Shown here in pieces: positions 15,901 through 23,200 of a DNA stretch of 23,545 nucleotides. Each line of letters starts with the position of its first letter. Positions within the stretch are counted from its first letter, which is position 1. The notes beneath the pieces are model-generated. The model was given only the letters and a program-made list of their open reading frames with translations, did no database searches and was not told the DNA's origin. This DNA is from a virus: IMG/VR virus record IMGVR_UViG_3300025759_000717, positions 1 through 23,545 of that record, one strand, 5' to 3'. Position numbers and translations under genes: made by a program.

Positions 15901-16170
15901 GGCAAGCTACTCAAGCAATACTACCTCGCCATGCGTATGGGAGACTACGAAGAAGCTCGGGATGTCAAACAAGATATATTGGATTTCAATAAGCGTGTAA
16001 GTAGGAAGTTCCCGAAAGCAATTATTACATCGGATTCAGTTGCACGTTCTATGAGATCGCACATGCGTACTTCTGCCACTATGCACAACGGTATTGCGAT
16101 AAGCCCTATGTTCCGAACAGCTTTACAAGAACACTTAGACGATAGTACCCCAATAACGCTAGATGATTAA
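9934..16170 (+). CDS. Giant polyvalent virion protein with HExxH metallopeptidase motif
   Basis: This protein of 2078 residues is the last gene of the late block. Residues 1-30 have 'ALINADAAGDVDAARLLA', a common N-terminal phrase of large phage proteins. Residues about 110-186 are Gly/Ala-rich and hydrophobic (GLGLASLIPGIGMPLAGG), and AEGAQEMAAGIAQN follows near 213. A long Glu/Pro/Thr-rich linker spans about 330-560. A zinc-peptidase signature lies at about 970-1021: LMHEMAHAV with His972, Glu973 and His976, then EFVAEAYG, whose Glu1016 or Glu1020 could be the third ligand. The C-terminal third holds hydrophobic segments at about 1532-1560 (LNTSSALVNLSQVPLFVLPM) and 1798-1826 (ALFFAGVQGLPLFGAFTMIA) plus HQVEQYNRQVTMLAAY near 1690. 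I associate this layout with polyvalent phage proteins injected with DNA, functionally like T7 internal proteins. Peptidase activity and membrane insertion are inferred. Its 3' end overlaps the convergent gene by 4 bases. Confidence 0.8.
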   Translation: MSLIQDLERALINADAAGDVDAARLLAKELRIQLGDFTSAPMEEPDFLDQIEEFGKGIPRGIIGLAEQAALGGASILTEEAEEGVRESILDTAGSAREYFAPDRGSEDTVGGKFGEAVGSFAGLGLASLIPGIGMPLAGGLAVGAGAGEARERSRAADATEGERGFATALGAVVGLSELIPIKVLGALRKDVDDSVVKQILGRVKRAGIAGGAEGAQEMAAGIAQNLIEKGVYNPEQGTFTGSGEAFGYGAGVGGLVQGLLDLALPKSRGRGEVAPDEVTEESIEETLQLGYDPSAEIIFEDGSVLRGNRETIEEAGYDFDEARQNTEFRAIAKAKQQEALAAEEARIAAIPDYPAGAVPGVPDAVVDDASTEASIIFEEQAKKKAEADKKMPMVVDQPESPDFVTTPEGETLSAQQFKNKELEDQVAAQVAALEAEIALADIPAPQVLQQRQLADESQAVAAAKAELAGRPQTDLFPTQLTTAEAQAARQPAPEPAPEPAQKISQKFLKDIGIAPTDTRTRKTKPIYQRLMAKKEVPLAELNAELKAYVDNPDVKDAPTKAKINEFLGVPQNKQIELAFGETETVTPTETTKTAETVETVKEVTTSPSTTAEKSVTEEAKEDTGTTPKKFDMKSLEGLSITEQLKVLEGRGAPTEFTPAAVVDGQLELEGSISETDLEQQGEQRRFVNQVSRDMQRQELDTKPLTIGERAEAVMKSPLGIEPALANVPPEYRKQVTAAVETERTIREAMAQKTADEKAVKQRKANAAVTEGAKDKKTKVPELSGTAQKRPKTKSRTKLKSLPEDVVKEANKRIDQGEPGSVNEIITKVKEDLGIPRFQDGVDTPLPDSVIQQLRQGNLKEALELVSKSEVDPIIKRLAKQFSTMVGTTKVAIVPANPEDISGKDNYYELKNKKTAISYRQVLNKLEEKNKTRITRIPGMYQPVSTDKNLKHFNDIILLDEVTGLTPATLMHEMAHAVTYATLQNPSHPLTKQITKLFKEVEPKLSGVNGTDNVLEFVAEAYGSQEFIQELSKIQVQVKGKFISALQALYNNISNFIRSKLGLAPVELSKTDAFTKLDTLLQKIIAPASDMQGAGDLLQNSTDPEVRALMRKMGNVQKDFKAPTKKFRDDFVNQADKFLRSGVSGKTRRAFLGFMPSQALADIAGSYNKKLGDLGQRLHRLMEEQRGELNKKDNAADGTMKQVDEWAKNNQAAVPLLDDVITESTLEGVDPSKPRSTYEKNAAKLAIWKGLQPKWNKLKESGGQDIYVGMRDSYAKLYKELIAVINKRIDGLDVDKENKEKLRKSVFDKITDRAGTDPYFPLMRSGDYKLSFQAYNEATDSTEPVFLMFESPRERDKYVKNELENNDTVERDGEGALVYSEYDGNDSPTYKKTTSASFVNEVLEILETAKVDAAVRNQILNSFIETLPETSFAKNFQRREGVAGFDQDHIRVMRSKIYDIGRQVTRLDYTNRITKMQQQILGTDPDNLDGTLAGLKNREGTLKDIQAELEARAEFAMRPPKDGFAQAANRAAFIWTIGLNTSSALVNLSQVPLFVLPMLGGKHGFRNAGKAITEAAGLVSGTLLSSKTMSRRIRGIVPFGKNDTVDAFAMPSMDNLFEMDEAGNYTVRKDIEGYAERRKELEEILPLVQLAAERGQLNRSLFADSLGLDSSGRDKSVIDRVSSWSAFMFHQVEQYNRQVTMLAAYKLELTRLAKEQPNLSAGKRRELAAQNALYEAQQLNGGSVLETAPRFAQKGVGRVALMYKTYGIQMYYTMLKSAKTMLNRENDPEVRKAAFKQLVAVHGTALFFAGVQGLPLFGAFTMIANLFLDEDEDDAETIVRKHIGEGWYKGALTELLDVDVSQRVALTNLLFQVNRYNRNPSPEETVFYYLGGPAWSVGKSFIRGTGELINGDMERGIEAMVPGAVRNGLKAIRYTEEGALTRRKDPILDDITGGQLVAQVIGFAPAEYARRQEENQGVKRIENTLRTNRGKLLKQYYLAMRMGDYEEARDVKQDILDFNKRVSRKFPKAIITSDSVARSMRSHMRTSATMHNGIAISPMFRTALQEHLDDSTPITLDD

Positions 16171-16313
16171 TCTTCCATCTGGCTTTGTTCTTTGTCTAGT
16201 ATTTGCAACGTACTCAACACAATCTGATCGTCACCAGCGTCTAATACGTTACTGTCACGCAGTTTAACAAGTGTCATCCACGCGAGTAGTAGTTCAGTTT
16301 TGTTTGCTTCCAT
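16167..16313 (-). CDS. 48-residue protein of unknown function
   Basis: The gene reads ATG at 16313 to TAA at 16167 and encodes MEANKTELLLAWMTLVKLRD, then SNVLDAGDDQIVLSTLQILD and KEQSQMED. It is preceded by a perfect AAGGAG Shine-Dalgarno sequence with a 6-base spacer, the strongest evidence that it is translated. Its stop overlaps the stop of the convergent giant late gene (bases 16167-16170). The product is small, acidic and probably helical, with a short amphipathic N-terminal helix and no cysteines or signal sequence. I recognise no family. It lies at the far end of the replication block, behind a terminator-like hairpin, and its ribosome site is buried in a second hairpin, so it is probably regulated at translation or expressed by read-through. 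A regulatory or host-directed small protein is possible, but nothing in the sequence shows it. Confidence 0.6.
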   Translation of the reverse strand: MEANKTELLLAWMTLVKLRDSNVLDAGDDQIVLSTLQILDKEQSQMED

Positions 16314-16317
16314 CAGG

Positions 16318-16337
16318 AACTCCTTAGTGTAGGAGTT
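16318..16337 (-). promoter_or_regulatory. Hairpin occluding the ribosome-binding site of the 48-residue gene
   Basis: On the - strand AACTCCT (16337-16331) pairs perfectly with AGGAGTT (16324-16318) around a 6-base loop ACACTA. The 3' arm contains most of the AAGGAG Shine-Dalgarno sequence, only 4 bases (CCTG) before the ATG. In the folded state the ribosome site would be closed. This is seen directly in the sequence; the regulatory effect is inferred. Confidence 0.6.
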
Positions 16338-16340
16338 AGG

Positions 16341-16361
16341 AAACCCCCTCCGAAGAGGGGG
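16341..16361 (-). terminator. UUCG-capped Rho-independent terminator-like hairpin
   Basis: On the - strand CCCCCTC (16361-16355), loop TTCG, GAGGGGG (16350-16344) form a perfect 7-bp GC-rich stem closed by a C(UUCG)G tetraloop and followed by TTT. The T-run is short (TTTCC). From the + side the loop reads CGAA with no T-run, so the - strand is the likely functional direction. It sits after the 75-residue gene and before the 48-residue gene. Transcripts from the replication block would therefore stop or be attenuated here. Confidence 0.65.
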
Positions 16362-16416
16362 CGCTCAGAGAGCAGGAGGATGACAGCACGAAGTGTGAGA
16401 AGGAGGACGGACTGTC
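16341..16416 (-). ncRNA. Candidate small RNA with two CCUCCU motifs
   Basis: Between the stop of the 75-residue gene and the UUCG hairpin lies a 76-base stretch with no reading frame of note. On the - strand it could fold as a first hairpin (GACAG 16416-16412 with CTGTC 16386-16382, and inside it CAC-TTC-GTG), a small GCTC-TCT-GAGC hairpin (16373-16363) and the terminator. Two copies of CCTCCT (16406-16401 and 16379-16374) lie in the first loop and in the linker, both unpaired in this fold. CCUCCU can pair with Shine-Dalgarno sequences. A weak extended -10 promoter is just upstream. It could equally be a 3' untranslated region or leader with chance pyrimidine tracts. Confidence 0.3.
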
Positions 16417-16422
16417 AGGTTA

Positions 16423-16451
16423 AATATATCACAACACCCTCCAGATACGAA
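16423..16451 (-). promoter_or_regulatory. Possible extended -10 promoter on the - strand
   Basis: TATATT (16428-16423) is directly preceded by TGA, giving a TGn extended -10, and by TTCGTA (16451-16446) at a 17-base spacing. The -35 match to TTGACA is poor (about 3 of 6). The TGA is also the stop codon of the 75-residue gene. It would start transcription near 16416, just before the candidate small RNA and the 48-residue gene. Confidence 0.25.
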
Positions 16452-16656
16452 CCCCTAATCTGTTACCTTCTACCCTAACCCTAGTTTCTATCGACCAACC
16501 TTTTTGCTTGGTTATTGCTTTGGCTTGCCGTATTGTTTCGGGGGTATTGATGCACGGTACGAATATAGATGAACCGACAACCATACACCCCCAGTTAATG
16601 ATAATCTGAACGCCATCAGGCGATAGATCATACGTTCTCAGTACTCCCTTCTTCAT
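16429..16656 (-). CDS. Small conserved-type phage protein, unknown function
   Basis: The 75-residue product starts at the ATG at 16656, which has GAGGG five bases upstream; a GTG at 16662 would add two residues but has a worse site. The sequence has the phrases IIINWGCMVVGSSIFVPCIN, ETIRQAKAITKQKGWSIETR and GNRLGVRIWRVL. It looks like a compact alpha/beta fold with two cysteines (in GCMVV and VPCIN) and resembles small hypothetical proteins near replication genes of other phages, whose function I do not know. It overlaps the end of the primase-helicase gene by 29 bases, so translation is probably coupled to it and the two may be functionally linked. The stop TGA forms part of a possible promoter for the downstream non-coding region. 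Confidence 0.65.
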   Translation of the reverse strand: MKKGVLRTYDLSPDGVQIIINWGCMVVGSSIFVPCINTPETIRQAKAITKQKGWSIETRVRVEGNRLGVRIWRVL

Positions 16657-19459
16657 CGTCACCCTCAGAAAACTGAACTACAATCACGTCTGTTGGGGGC
16701 ATATTTAGCTGGGTACCTTTACTTAACCGCATTTTCATCCGTTTAGCCCCTAGCTTTTCAACAAGATCATTTACGAACGCCCCGTAGTTTATCTGCTGTT
16801 CGCCACACCACAACCGCAACGGCTTGGGTACTAGGTATAACTTCTTTATATCTGTTTCATACCTAGCCACCAACTTGTTTCGGGGTACGGCCTCGGGCAA
16901 GATTATGGACTCCATCGCGGTACCGTCTTGCTTACGTAAGTCACTGGTGCTCTTGATCCGCAAGATGTTATCGATATGCTCGTTAACGTACTCATTGAGT
17001 GTCTGCTCAATAGAGACAGCCATATCCTGCGCTTTGGCCTTGTTCTCTAACAACATACTAACGGCCCAGTCAGTAAGCGCCGGTATGTCAAACCGGATAA
17101 GATCTAGCTTTTCCGCAATGATCGCACCTGTCAAGGTAAGCGTTACATAGACCGACCAGAATCGGTTTTCTGAAGATAACGCTGCCTTCCTGTCAATTCG
17201 AATCTGCACTTCTTGTACTATCCGCTTGACCTCATCAAGATTGTTCATGACGTATTGCGCGACGACTGGCCCCGCGTGCCCGTAACACTTACCTAATGCG
17301 CGACTGAACTCATCTGTTTCTTTTTTACTGCTAGAACCTGTAAACATCTTTTCGACACGTACTTCTAGTATGCGCTGTGCTTCGGCATTCGGATTGTCTT
17401 TCTTCATACGAATACGTTCTATGATACTGGTGTTACCTGTGGTCAATGCCAGAAGACTCCAAGACTCACCACGTAACCGTTCTGAATTACCCCCACTAAC
17501 CAACCGCCCCCTCTGCTTACCAGTGGTGAACTGTAGGGCTAACGTGCTTAACGCTTTACTCTCAGCATTAGTCAACTCGTCAATCAACAAAGGTAGGTTG
17601 TGCAGTACCTCAGACCGATTCATCTTGGTGTTGTGTGTATCCTGCTCATTGATAACTAACTCTGCTGGATCACCCCATATCGATGCAGCAGCTTTCATAG
17701 CAGTCGTCTTGCCTAGCCCTGACTCCTTACTGTAAAGATGTAACGCTGCACACGCTATGTCATCGATGAATTGCATGAGGATAGAACCGAACCCAGCGCA
17801 AGTTGCGAACTGGTGTAATTCAAATCCCGGTTTATTATAAAAATCGATTATCTGCCGCCACTCATCGAGCGTGCCTTTCGGCTCAAATGCTGGGAACATA
17901 CCCGCAGTGGCTTTAGAAGGCGGGTTAAACACCACCTCATCTTTCAAGATCATCTGGTTACCCAGTACAAACCCTGTTGCCTCATCGTCTATCCAACCAA
18001 ATTGCCTATATGCTTTATCTGCCACTTCCTTCTCCTGTAGTTCATTTACCCAAGTTGTGATGTATTCCATCAATTTTTCCACTCTCGAAACAGCTACCCC
18101 GTGCATGGACATGTTCTTTCTAAGTTCTTCCCTAGATGTAACTGCCGTTAAAGGCAGAGTGAACTCCCGTACACCGTCTTTCGGTAGATGTAGACGTACC
18201 ACTACAGATTCACCTAACTCTAAATCTACGATGCGCTTAACAATGTAGATATCGTTGTGGTAAATCCGTTCTTCGTTTTCGTTTCCTTCCGAATCTTGTG
18301 ACCGTATGTAAACTCCCCCGTTCGTACCTCTAATATATGGGAACGGATACTTGGGTATAACATAGGTATTGATCGGGGCATTAGGTAGGTCTAAAGCAGG
18401 TGCTTCGACCGTATTTTCCTCTTCTGTAGCTTCCTTAATACGCTTACCGATATGCAAAGGTGACCTGTATTTGCCTCTATTGGGACACTGTAAACACGTT
18501 TCTGGTAAAATCTCCTCAAATCTGGCACATGTGTAACGTTTGTCAGACGTTAAGTTATCCCATTTCGCATCGGTTTCATCAGGATCATACCCATCGTACC
18601 GCTCCGATAACTTGTGCGCCTTCTCTCTTGACCCATCGCTACAGGCTTTCAATACCGACAACACACCTCGCCATATAGGTTCCGACACTCCATTAGGGTT
18701 AATGTACGCACTGGCTATATGTGCACACCCTTCCCCCTGACTAGTCTTGCGTAGGATATCCTTGAACCGGTACTCGCGGTTCGATAACGCTGCGTTCATC
18801 ACCGCGTTAGCCCCATCAAGTTTCTTTGTGGGAACTGGTATCGGATCGTTTCCGAGCAACCTCGAAAATATATCGAAGTCAACAAGGGTGGGTAAGTGCG
18901 TACCTACGAAGTCTACTTCTGCTGGAACTTCGGGCTTGTAGTTATGGGTTGTGGGTACACGTAATACCCGTGCTGCATCCGCTGTGACTGCGGGGTCAGC
19001 GAGAAAGTTGTTATCTGCACATAGTTGCTTGAGCTTAAGTGCTACTGGCAACCAGTCATCGGTAGGTACTGCTTCTGACAGCACCCAGTATACGTGGATA
19101 CCTCGACCTGAGTTAACCATCAAAGGGCGTGGTAATTTGAACTGTTTACAAAACGCTTTTAGCTGAGAAATCGCTTCTGTCTGCGATACAAAATCTTTCG
19201 ATGGGCCACAATCTAGATCAAGAAAAAATGATTTTAGATGTTGAACGTTATCTACCTTACGAGAATTAGCCTCCTTAAAACTAGCCAACGCAAAATAAAC
19301 ATCGTAACCCTTCGTATCAAAGTCTTGCGCTGCATCAATTAAATCATCCACGGACTCAAAAAATTTCTGACTCCTCCTATCCGCAGACGTGTTAGATGCA
19401 AAAACACAATACGACCCACTCTCTGGTAGCGCCTCCTTTAAAAATATTGCTGTTTCCAT
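16628..19459 (-). CDS. Primase-helicase: AEP-like primase plus DUF927-type ATPase
   Basis: This 943-residue replication protein probably makes primers and unwinds the phage DNA. Residues about 1-200 look like an archaeo-eukaryotic-type primase/polymerase: FFLDLDCG with Asp81 and Asp83 as likely metal ligands, SGRGIHVYW (117-125) with His122, and DAARVLRVPTTHNYK (161-174). A middle segment has possible zinc ligands Cys311, Cys322 and Cys325. From about 365 to 720 it matches a DUF927-type helicase ATPase, with Walker A SKESGLGKTT (577-586, Lys584), Walker B LLIDE (624-628) and a sensor-like ALTTGN (671-676). The C-terminal 220 residues are unassigned. The start at 19459 has no strong Shine-Dalgarno sequence (only GGAT at some distance), and a stable hairpin ends 19 bases upstream. 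No DNA polymerase gene is in the window. Confidence 0.85.
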   Translation of the reverse strand: METAIFLKEALPESGSYCVFASNTSADRRSQKFFESVDDLIDAAQDFDTKGYDVYFALASFKEANSRKVDNVQHLKSFFLDLDCGPSKDFVSQTEAISQLKAFCKQFKLPRPLMVNSGRGIHVYWVLSEAVPTDDWLPVALKLKQLCADNNFLADPAVTADAARVLRVPTTHNYKPEVPAEVDFVGTHLPTLVDFDIFSRLLGNDPIPVPTKKLDGANAVMNAALSNREYRFKDILRKTSQGEGCAHIASAYINPNGVSEPIWRGVLSVLKACSDGSREKAHKLSERYDGYDPDETDAKWDNLTSDKRYTCARFEEILPETCLQCPNRGKYRSPLHIGKRIKEATEEENTVEAPALDLPNAPINTYVIPKYPFPYIRGTNGGVYIRSQDSEGNENEERIYHNDIYIVKRIVDLELGESVVVRLHLPKDGVREFTLPLTAVTSREELRKNMSMHGVAVSRVEKLMEYITTWVNELQEKEVADKAYRQFGWIDDEATGFVLGNQMILKDEVVFNPPSKATAGMFPAFEPKGTLDEWRQIIDFYNKPGFELHQFATCAGFGSILMQFIDDIACAALHLYSKESGLGKTTAMKAAASIWGDPAELVINEQDTHNTKMNRSEVLHNLPLLIDELTNAESKALSTLALQFTTGKQRGRLVSGGNSERLRGESWSLLALTTGNTSIIERIRMKKDNPNAEAQRILEVRVEKMFTGSSSKKETDEFSRALGKCYGHAGPVVAQYVMNNLDEVKRIVQEVQIRIDRKAALSSENRFWSVYVTLTLTGAIIAEKLDLIRFDIPALTDWAVSMLLENKAKAQDMAVSIEQTLNEYVNEHIDNILRIKSTSDLRKQDGTAMESIILPEAVPRNKLVARYETDIKKLYLVPKPLRLWCGEQQINYGAFVNDLVEKLGAKRMKMRLSKGTQLNMPPTDVIVVQFSEGDDEEGSTENV

Positions 19460-19478
19460 AAGATAGATCCGAAAGACA

Positions 19479-19525
19479 CCACGGCAGGGGCATTGTTACG
19501 CCCTCTTCGACTAATCTAGCCGTGG
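19479..19525 (-). promoter_or_regulatory. Structured leader hairpin before the primase-helicase gene
   Basis: CCACGGC (19525-19519 on the - strand) pairs perfectly with GCCGTGG (19485-19479). Inside it GGGC (19504-19501 plus neighbour) can pair with GCCC around GTAACAAT. The structure ends 19 bases before the ATG at 19459 and is followed by TGTCTTTC, so it could be a weak terminator/attenuator or a translational control element. Confidence 0.4.
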
Positions 19526-19541
19526 GTATTGTTGAATGAAT

Positions 19542-21620: not shown

Positions 21621-21626
21621 CTCCTT
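21621..21626 (-). promoter_or_regulatory. Shine-Dalgarno deciding the start at 21614
   Basis: On the - strand AAGGAG is followed by ATCGAA and ATG, an ideal 6-base spacing. This makes 21614 the start rather than the in-frame GTG at 21629. Confidence 0.8.
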
Positions 21627-21664: not shown

Positions 21665-23200
21665 TTACGCAAGGATTTCGTTGTATAAGTCGATCATTTT
21701 TGTATGTATGTTTATTTTGTTATCAAGCATTCTATAGACGTGCTTTTCTATGGCAGATCCTTGCAGTTGAACTACGGTACACTTATGGTCTTGACCTGAT
21801 CTATGTACACGAGCGTTGGCCTGTGCGTACGTTTCTAATGAACTGGTTGGCCCCCACCACACCACTGTATTTGCAGCCGTAAGGGTTACACCATGCGCTG
21901 CTGCTTGGGGTTGGATCACTAAAACTTTAGGGTCTTCGAGGGTTTGAAACTGTTTAAATATTTCCGTGCGTTTAGGGGCAGGAACATCACCCCTGATTAC
22001 TGCTGTCGTAATCCCGTCGCTACCTAGCTTCTCTACCAACATATCTATAACGTGTTTAAAAGGTACGAAAACAAGGATTTTCTTACTGGACTCGTCAATA
22101 ACTTCTCGCAGCACTTTGTACCGATGCTTGATATCAAACTCTAGTGACTCACCCTTGTCGGTATAGACAGCACCACAAGATATTTGTAGTAACTTGTTCA
22201 TGTTAACCGCTGCATTGGCGGCAGTTACTTGCTCTCCCGCTGCATCCATGACCATCCGATCTTTCAACAACTTATAGTATTTTATCTGTTGTCTGGTAAG
22301 TTCAACTTCCCGTTTTACATACACCATAGGGGGTAGGTCTAGGCACTCTTCTTTGGTGAACCGGATAGCCGGTTGGAGAACCCTGTACACCGTATCGGTT
22401 GCGTCGTCCTTCGGCACCCATCTAAAGTTGGTGATCTTTGTCATCACTCGGTCGCGGAATGACCCGAAGAACCTTGGTACCGCTGACTGGTTAACAAGTT
22501 TGGCTATACCATAAGCATCGAGGGGACTCTGAGCTGCGGGAGTACCCGTCATCATCCACAACCATTTATCTGGCGTGAGTAATGCGTTAAGCGTCTTCCA
22601 TCGCTTGGTCTGTGCGTTTTTATAATGAGTAGCTTCATCCACAATAATCAGGTCAAACCCACCGTTTGCTATAGCGTCTGACACAATCTCTACACCGTCA
22701 TAATTTATTATCACGAAATCAGCATTGTTGTTGATTATGCCTTTGCGTTTTGCTGCTGGCCCGTAAGCCACGTCTACTGTTCGGTGCATCGCAAATGTAA
22801 ATAAATCGTTACGCCACGCGGAATCCATGATAGATAGGGGGCATATCACTAGAGCACGTTTAATGTGCCCTTCGTTCATAAGATAGTCTGCCGCCCAGAT
22901 AGCACTAGCAGTCTTGCCGGTACCCTGCTCGTTGAAGCAGAAGGCACGTTTGTTTAACGTAAGAAAAGAAGAAGTCGTTTTCTGGTGCTCGAACGGCGTG
23001 TACTTACCCGTCCACTTATACTTCCCTTCGATCGGGGAAGGTACTTTGATGTTTAAATTTTTAAGTACTTGAGCCTCGTCGATACCCCAGTTAACCATTA
23101 CTTTGTTATCAGGTAACTGCTTACTTTTGGGTATGACTGTCGTTACTTTTTTAGGGTTGCGAAGCCGCAAGAGCAACGCCTTGTTCTGGTAAATTTCCAT
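21665..23200 (-). CDS. SNF2-like superfamily 2 helicase/translocase
   Basis: This 511-residue protein has all main SNF2-family motifs: TPFEHQ (68-73), Walker A NEQGTGKT (90-97, Lys96), ALVICPLSIMDSAW (116-129), the DEAH-type box VDEATHYKN (187-195, here DEAT), MTGTP (217-221), a helicase C domain with KILVFVPFKHVIDML and VLVIQPQAAAHGVTL, and ARVHRSGQ (463-470). It is a compact single-chain ATPase without extra DNA-binding or nuclease domains, so it is probably a DNA translocase used in phage replication, recombination or replication-fork remodelling; this role is inferred from family and context. AGGA lies about 6 bases before the ATG at 23200. A 142-base structured, gene-free leader separates it from the HNH-like gene, and 50 bases separate it from the 135-residue gene, so it probably shares the same transcript. 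Confidence 0.9.
   Translation of the reverse strand: MEIYQNKALLLRLRNPKKVTTVIPKSKQLPDNKVMVNWGIDEAQVLKNLNIKVPSPIEGKYKWTGKYTPFEHQKTTSSFLTLNKRAFCFNEQGTGKTASAIWAADYLMNEGHIKRALVICPLSIMDSAWRNDLFTFAMHRTVDVAYGPAAKRKGIINNNADFVIINYDGVEIVSDAIANGGFDLIIVDEATHYKNAQTKRWKTLNALLTPDKWLWMMTGTPAAQSPLDAYGIAKLVNQSAVPRFFGSFRDRVMTKITNFRWVPKDDATDTVYRVLQPAIRFTKEECLDLPPMVYVKREVELTRQQIKYYKLLKDRMVMDAAGEQVTAANAAVNMNKLLQISCGAVYTDKGESLEFDIKHRYKVLREVIDESSKKILVFVPFKHVIDMLVEKLGSDGITTAVIRGDVPAPKRTEIFKQFQTLEDPKVLVIQPQAAAHGVTLTAANTVVWWGPTSSLETYAQANARVHRSGQDHKCTVVQLQGSAIEKHVYRMLDNKINIHTKMIDLYNEILA

Follow-up and report, generated by a model that had tools for sequence, protein, structure and literature searches.

A conserved putative small RNA at the end of a phage replication operon probably pairs with the ribosome sites of the same operon

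Small RNAs of the NfeR1/alpha-r14/cuckoo type pair with ribosome sites through an unpaired anti-Shine-Dalgarno sequence, and the cuckoo-type RNAs, which belong, like the CcsR RNAs, to alphaproteobacteria, carry the CCUCCUCCC motif in identical form in the unpaired parts of several hairpins (PMC10746234). CcsR genes sit together with a DUF1127 gene (PMC10253847). In Vibrio cholerae, OppZ and CarZ are small RNAs derived from 3' untranslated regions, which are released by RNase E cleavage and pair with the initiation sites of their own operons (PMC7398697). Among phages, translational control of early genes is known from the T4 proteins RegA and RegB, of which RegA competes at the initiation regions of about 30 T4 mRNAs (PMC3014915), and the c4 RNA of P1/P7 and the sar RNA of P22 block translation initiation of a phage mRNA (PMC12197685).

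The stretch of DNA analyzed here, denoted as the window, is a fragment of 23,545 nucleotides (23.5 kb) from a virus record. The initial annotation had proposed a minus-strand phage small RNA that has a promoter of its own, segments complementary to Shine-Dalgarno sequences and a terminator; its TGA-TATATT, the CCTCCT motifs in a loop and in the linker, and the UUCG hairpin with TTT were all found where they had been placed (Table 1), and conservation upholds the predicted RNA as a whole. The terminator hairpin reads CCCCCTC-TTCG-GAGGGGG, followed by TTT ending at 16341. The 76-nt RNA has a predicted fold of -29.3 kcal/mol (z = -3.8), which none of 200 shuffles matched in stability, and both CCUCCU motifs are unpaired in this fold. 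CCTCCT is not in excess in the window (10 occurrences versus 10.45 expected), and neither the promoter nor the terminator, which has three T only, passed the consensus scans. Since conservation shows both, we did not count these scans against them, and the element was judged to be above chance because this ordered architecture recurs at the same place in 119 distinct relatives. The conservation of the weak TTCGTA hexamer may reflect coding constraint, since it lies inside ORF77.

Table 1. Features of the element and its neighborhood in the window (positions in the window; all on the minus strand).
Feature	Position	Strand	Remark
SNF2-type helicase	21665-23200	-	
Candidate target AAGGAG	21621-21626	-	ribosome site of the 135-aa family-4 gene (start 21614)
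Structured RNA resembling int-alpA	19466-19526	-	just upstream of the primase
DUF927 primase/helicase	16628-19459	-	
ORF77 (77 aa)	16429-16662	-	closes the early/replication operon; conserved family with no Pfam match; flanks the element
-35-like hexamer TTCGTA	16446-16451	-	weak; 17 nt from the -10
Extended -10 TGA-TATATT	16423-16431	-	conserved in 71 cluster representatives
Small RNA (76 nt), predicted	16341-16416	-	predicted +1 at 16416 (G, 92% conserved); fold z -3.8; homologues
5' hairpin GACAG...CTGTC	16382-16416	-	5 pairs with compensatory changes
Loop seed CGUCCUCCUUCUC	16397-16409	-	window subgroup; close relatives have exact complements to it in early ribosome sites
CCTCCT in hairpin loop	16401-16406	-	
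Linker seed AUCCUCCUG	16373-16381	-	equivalent of GUUCUCC in other relatives; core of the family
CCTCCT in linker	16374-16379	-	
Intrinsic-terminator-like hairpin	16341-16362	-	UUCG loop, short T run
CTCCT-N6-AGGAG hairpin	16317-16338	-	masks the ribosome site of ORF48
ORF48 (48 aa)	16167-16313	-	flanks the element

The element is the last of an operon that runs, by gene family, 15-16-23-34-...-helicase-4-2-9-12-primase-ORF77. This operon is called early based on its replication gene content, and only 8 of its early genes are present in the window. The other minus-strand genes of the cluster are a 135/140-aa gene, a small HTH-like gene, a 220-aa gene and one with a weak match to T7 SSB; by Pfam, the window neighbors tested besides ORF77 and ORF48 are the SNF2 helicase, the DUF927 primase and weak matches to HTH_17 and T7 SSB. 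The TGA stop codon of ORF77 is at the same time the TGA of the extended -10 promoter, and beyond the element, in minus-strand order, lie ORF48 and then a convergent 2079-aa gene. The ORF77 family consists of small proteins at the operon end with the invariant residues D-L-x-P-D-G ... G-x-x-x-W-R. The structured RNA upstream of the primase resembles Rfam int-alpA (RF02996), with a score of 23.9 bits in the window, which is under the cut-off of 35.8, and of 39.4 bits, above the cut-off, at the same place in a relative (L151, 3205-3281). With RNAs at both sites, the primase-ORF77 pair is flanked by two RNAs.

Relatives were collected by primase-based scans of IMG/VR, which provided many syntenic loci, and the site was located via an ORF77 profile, independently of the RNA sequence. 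Of the distinct sequences downstream of ORF77 obtained in this way, 119 carry the element and 11 lack it, and the 119 fall into 71 clusters at 90%; one of the 119 (L041), which keeps the promoter alone, was excluded from the 71 representatives. L041 is nearly identical to L040 up to the promoter and then leads straight into the convergent gene, which reflects either recombination that naturally removed the RNA or a join made in assembly. A DNA-pattern scan across IMG/VR found 88 stretches, and a relative of the primase is encoded in each of the 80 loci that were newly fetched; the architecture is thus particular to this phage group, which comprises mostly marine viruses of bacteria. No near DNA match to the window was found among cultured phages, and in those with the nearest replication modules, Pseudomonas phage Rollin and the Rhizobium phages RHph_TM, the RNA is absent at that place. 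A 14.4-kb MAG contig labelled Rhodobacteraceae (L164) carries the same replication genes and the RNA; it is possibly a hint to the host or a mis-binned phage contig, and a single contig does not suffice for naming a host.

Among the cluster representatives, TGATA is virtually invariant. The -10 has TA at positions 1-2 in 100% and T at position 6 in 94% of the 71 representatives, variation is seen in its three middle bases and in the six bases that follow, and the base after these is G in 92%. This pattern, TGATANNNT + N6 + G, is predicted to be an extended -10 promoter that overlaps the ORF77 stop and has its start point fixed at 6-nt spacing. The five pairs of the 5' stem are formed in 98.5% of cells over 52 sequences, and compensatory changes, on which the initial annotation had made the small RNA depend, are present, as 7 cells changed on both sides compared with 0.8 in shuffles, none of 500 shuffles being as high. 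The hairpin is followed by an unpaired linker that contains CUCC in almost every cluster, mostly as GUUCUCC, and then by the terminator, whose T run is about 5-7 in most relatives; in a few clusters (L220, L221, L224 and L242), UCUCC sits in a hairpin loop and not in the linker. A shorter run of 1-3 T was seen in the relatives that have ORF48, as if read-through were wanted. The expectation that CCUCCU itself would be kept did not hold, since the usual linker is GUUCUCC, although the targets change along with the linker. CCUCCU in the loop was rejected as a universal core, being absent in L051, L057 and L076 and in the majority of distant relatives; the shared core is the linker CUCC, and the loop CCUCCU is a feature of the subgroup to which the window belongs. 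Throughout a related clade (L058-L080, e.g. L064) and in L166 the element is absent and the ORF77 stop is TAA/TAG; the clade provides a natural negative control for the RNA.

The position directly after the last operon gene, the use of a terminator between convergent genes and a promoter that is weak by consensus scan would all suit a mere 3' untranslated region that terminates the early operon and has no regulatory role of its own. We consider this quite improbable, because the promoter, its spacing, the compensated hairpin and the CUCC linker are kept while loops and spacers drift, because the related clade manages without the element, and because a terminator alone leaves the covariation of linkers and targets, described below, unexplained.

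For 30 genomes or large fragments in addition to the window, ribosome sites were set against the linker that their own phage carries, with genes called by a simple script that gave no credit for sequence beyond the Shine-Dalgarno core. A tally of all ribosome sites with at least 8 complementary nt, in which early and late genes were pooled, was rejected as too coarse. Many early genes read aaGGAGAACGAC-ATG, which is the complement of GUCGUUCUCC, with, for example, a match of 13 nt at family 15 in G003. GGAG sites with at least 4 extra nt matching their own linker numbered 32 compared with 12.1 +/- 4.0 for permuted linkers, and at every threshold none of 2000 permutations was as high as the own linkers; in the 15 genomes with GUU linkers, GGAG was extended by the own-linker complement (GGAGAAC...) at 48 of 174 early sites and at 1 of 185 elsewhere (p = 7e-16), and in ten divergent genomes (40-72% primase identity) at 36/126 and 1/136 (p = 6e-12), where the permutation and Fisher values ignore relatedness and kinship inflates these probabilities. 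Since the extension is common to several unrelated genes per genome, gene descent does not explain it. The matched targets include the SNF2 helicase, an ATPase, family 4 and others of the same operon. A further complementarity, to GGAGAAC at the end of ORF77 (codons WRT), was judged to be coding because relatives have CGN codons in its place.

The sites also differ along with the linkers. In phages with CGUU linkers, AACG was present at 17 of 31 sites and AACC at none, whereas with GGUU linkers AACC was present at 9 of 14 sites and AACG at 2. The UCUCU linker is accompanied by GGAGAGAGA, in accordance with this covariation, and in G016, whose linker is UCUCUCUCC, GGAGAGA-type sites made up 5/14 early and 0/11 other sites. 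The linkers of G018 and G019 showed no enrichment of extended matches. In relatives lacking the RNA, GGAGAAC occurs at 1 of 41 early sites, and in the distant, cultured Pseudomonas phage Rollin at 0 of 39 sites. In contrast to the earlier proposal of an RNA that could pair with many ribosome sites in general, the evidence points to the replication operon of the phage itself. CUCC/CCUCC would pair with many bacterial ribosome sites, and anti-Shine-Dalgarno RNAs with broad host regulons exist (NfeR1, PMC10746234), so that a general RNA acting mainly on host mRNAs (host shut-off), its similarity to phage sites being incidental, may be conceived. Considering that the extended matches lie in the early operon and are nearly missing at the GGAG cores of the remaining phage genes, and that they covary with the linker, such an RNA seems rather unlikely. 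Further host targets beside the phage early operon are possible.

In the subgroup of the window, the linker is CAUCCUCCUG and the loop is CGUCCUCCUUCUC. Extended early matches to this linker were found at 0 of 44 sites, and a loop complement of at least 9 nt (range 9-11) was present at 5 of the 44 early sites versus 0 of 66 others; the same measure gave 4/319 early sites in GUU-type phages. The loop matches include family 16 in G001 (11 nt) and G007 (10 nt), family 34 in G007 (10 nt) and family 4 in G001 (9 nt), and families 16 and 34 are targets in other phages as well. The family 34 site is AGGAGAACGAC in G014 versus AGGAGGACGAT in G007, the same base change as that of the seed from GUUCUCC to GUCCUCC. 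Of the two AAGGAG sites that had been named as natural local targets, the one at 21621-21626 proved to be the ribosome site of the family-4 gene, where GAAGGAG is a 7-nt complement of the loop seed and the best contiguous candidate in the window; orthologues of family 4 have an extended match in 9 genomes and are among the most frequent extended targets. For this subgroup, the support comes from the loop and a few genes, with a contiguous match of at most 7 nt in the window.

The short T run of the terminator in this subgroup, followed by the hairpin that masks the ORF48 site, could also belong to a cis-acting leader (attenuator) of ORF48. Since most relatives possess the RNA with about 5-7 T in its run but lack ORF48, we regard such a leader as highly improbable.

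Based on the comparison of relatives, in which the predicted promoter, hairpin, linker and terminator are conserved, the complementarity is confined to the early operon and linkers covary with targets, the element is probably an operon-terminal anti-Shine-Dalgarno small RNA that represses translation of its own early operon, as the counterpart in RNA of T4 RegA. The RNA would start from an extended -10 promoter of its own, placed at the operon's 3' end, and end at the intrinsic terminator. Its unpaired CUCC segment, in the linker and in the window subgroup also in the 5' loop, would pair with GGAG ribosome sites and occlude initiation at several cistrons of the same operon, thereby reducing early-gene translation. 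For an RNA that is placed at the operon end and matches ribosome sites of that operon, negative feedback or an early-to-late switch is the suggested outcome. Expression of the RNA, repression rather than activation, and the timing of its action are what we infer from these data; the phage small RNA family appears to be real, its target class is strongly supported, and the mechanism is probable.

Initiation is normally blocked by pairing over a ribosome site, and this speaks against a scheme in which pairing would protect or activate the early mRNAs, for example against a RegB-like GGAG nuclease, or in which the RNA would sequester another regulator of these sites. The comparative data reveal pairing and not the sign of its effect, and T4 RegB does cut GGAG in early mRNAs (PMC3014915); on balance, we consider both roles unlikely. 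If repression by the RNA is true, early genes would be shut off by an RNA in a group of uncultured viruses that is widespread. The covariation of linkers and targets offers ready-made compensatory pairs from different phages, which makes the mechanism directly testable, and private linker-site codes could serve as orthogonal translational switches. On a broader proposal we are evenly divided, namely that an RNA stands in place of a RegA-type protein repressor throughout a widespread phage family, where one small RNA would read a shared extended site (GGAG plus about 3-7 nt) in several early cistrons, RNA and sites would coevolve as a private lineage-specific code, and the early-to-late switch would be timed by the RNA.

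When compared with known families, neither the window element nor 17 diverse loci matched any family above the gathering threshold in Rfam 15, and no match at a relaxed E-value overlapped the element. Membership in the cuckoo/CcsR/alpha-r14 RNAs, which the initial annotation had brought up, was not borne out, as the repeated CCUCCUCCC motif and a DUF1127 neighbor are absent. CCUCCU is present once in the loop and once in the linker, most relatives have GUUCUCC once, in the linker, and the neighboring ORF77 and ORF48 are without Pfam match, which also led us to reject a CcsR/CIN1 locus, where a gene for a small DUF1127 protein would be co-transcribed. Like the NfeR1/CcsR RNAs, the element is a putative small RNA that would expose an unpaired anti-Shine-Dalgarno segment. 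This segment is complementary to the predicted targets and covaries with them. Unlike in those RNAs, the core, mostly found in the linker, is GUUCUCC, or CCUCCU in the window group, the element lies beside a phage primase and ORF77, and its predicted targets are in the phage operon. As with OppZ/CarZ, it lies at the 3' end of the operon whose initiation sites it matches, being the last element of the operon that holds nearly all extended sites, but it is a phage element with a predicted conserved promoter of its own and apparently many target cistrons. It resembles T4 RegA/RegB in being encoded in the replication gene cluster, RegB likewise acting on GGAG of early mRNAs, whereas these are proteins and the RNA would read its sites by base pairing. 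Phage antisense RNAs such as c4 and sar act on one antirepressor mRNA each, whereas here several cistrons of the replication operon share the matching extended ribosome site. The small RNA family had no counterpart in Rfam or in the papers considered here on comparable regulatory RNAs, and its predicted design is of the anti-Shine-Dalgarno type in action and of the autoregulatory operon-end type in position, with a putative promoter of its own.
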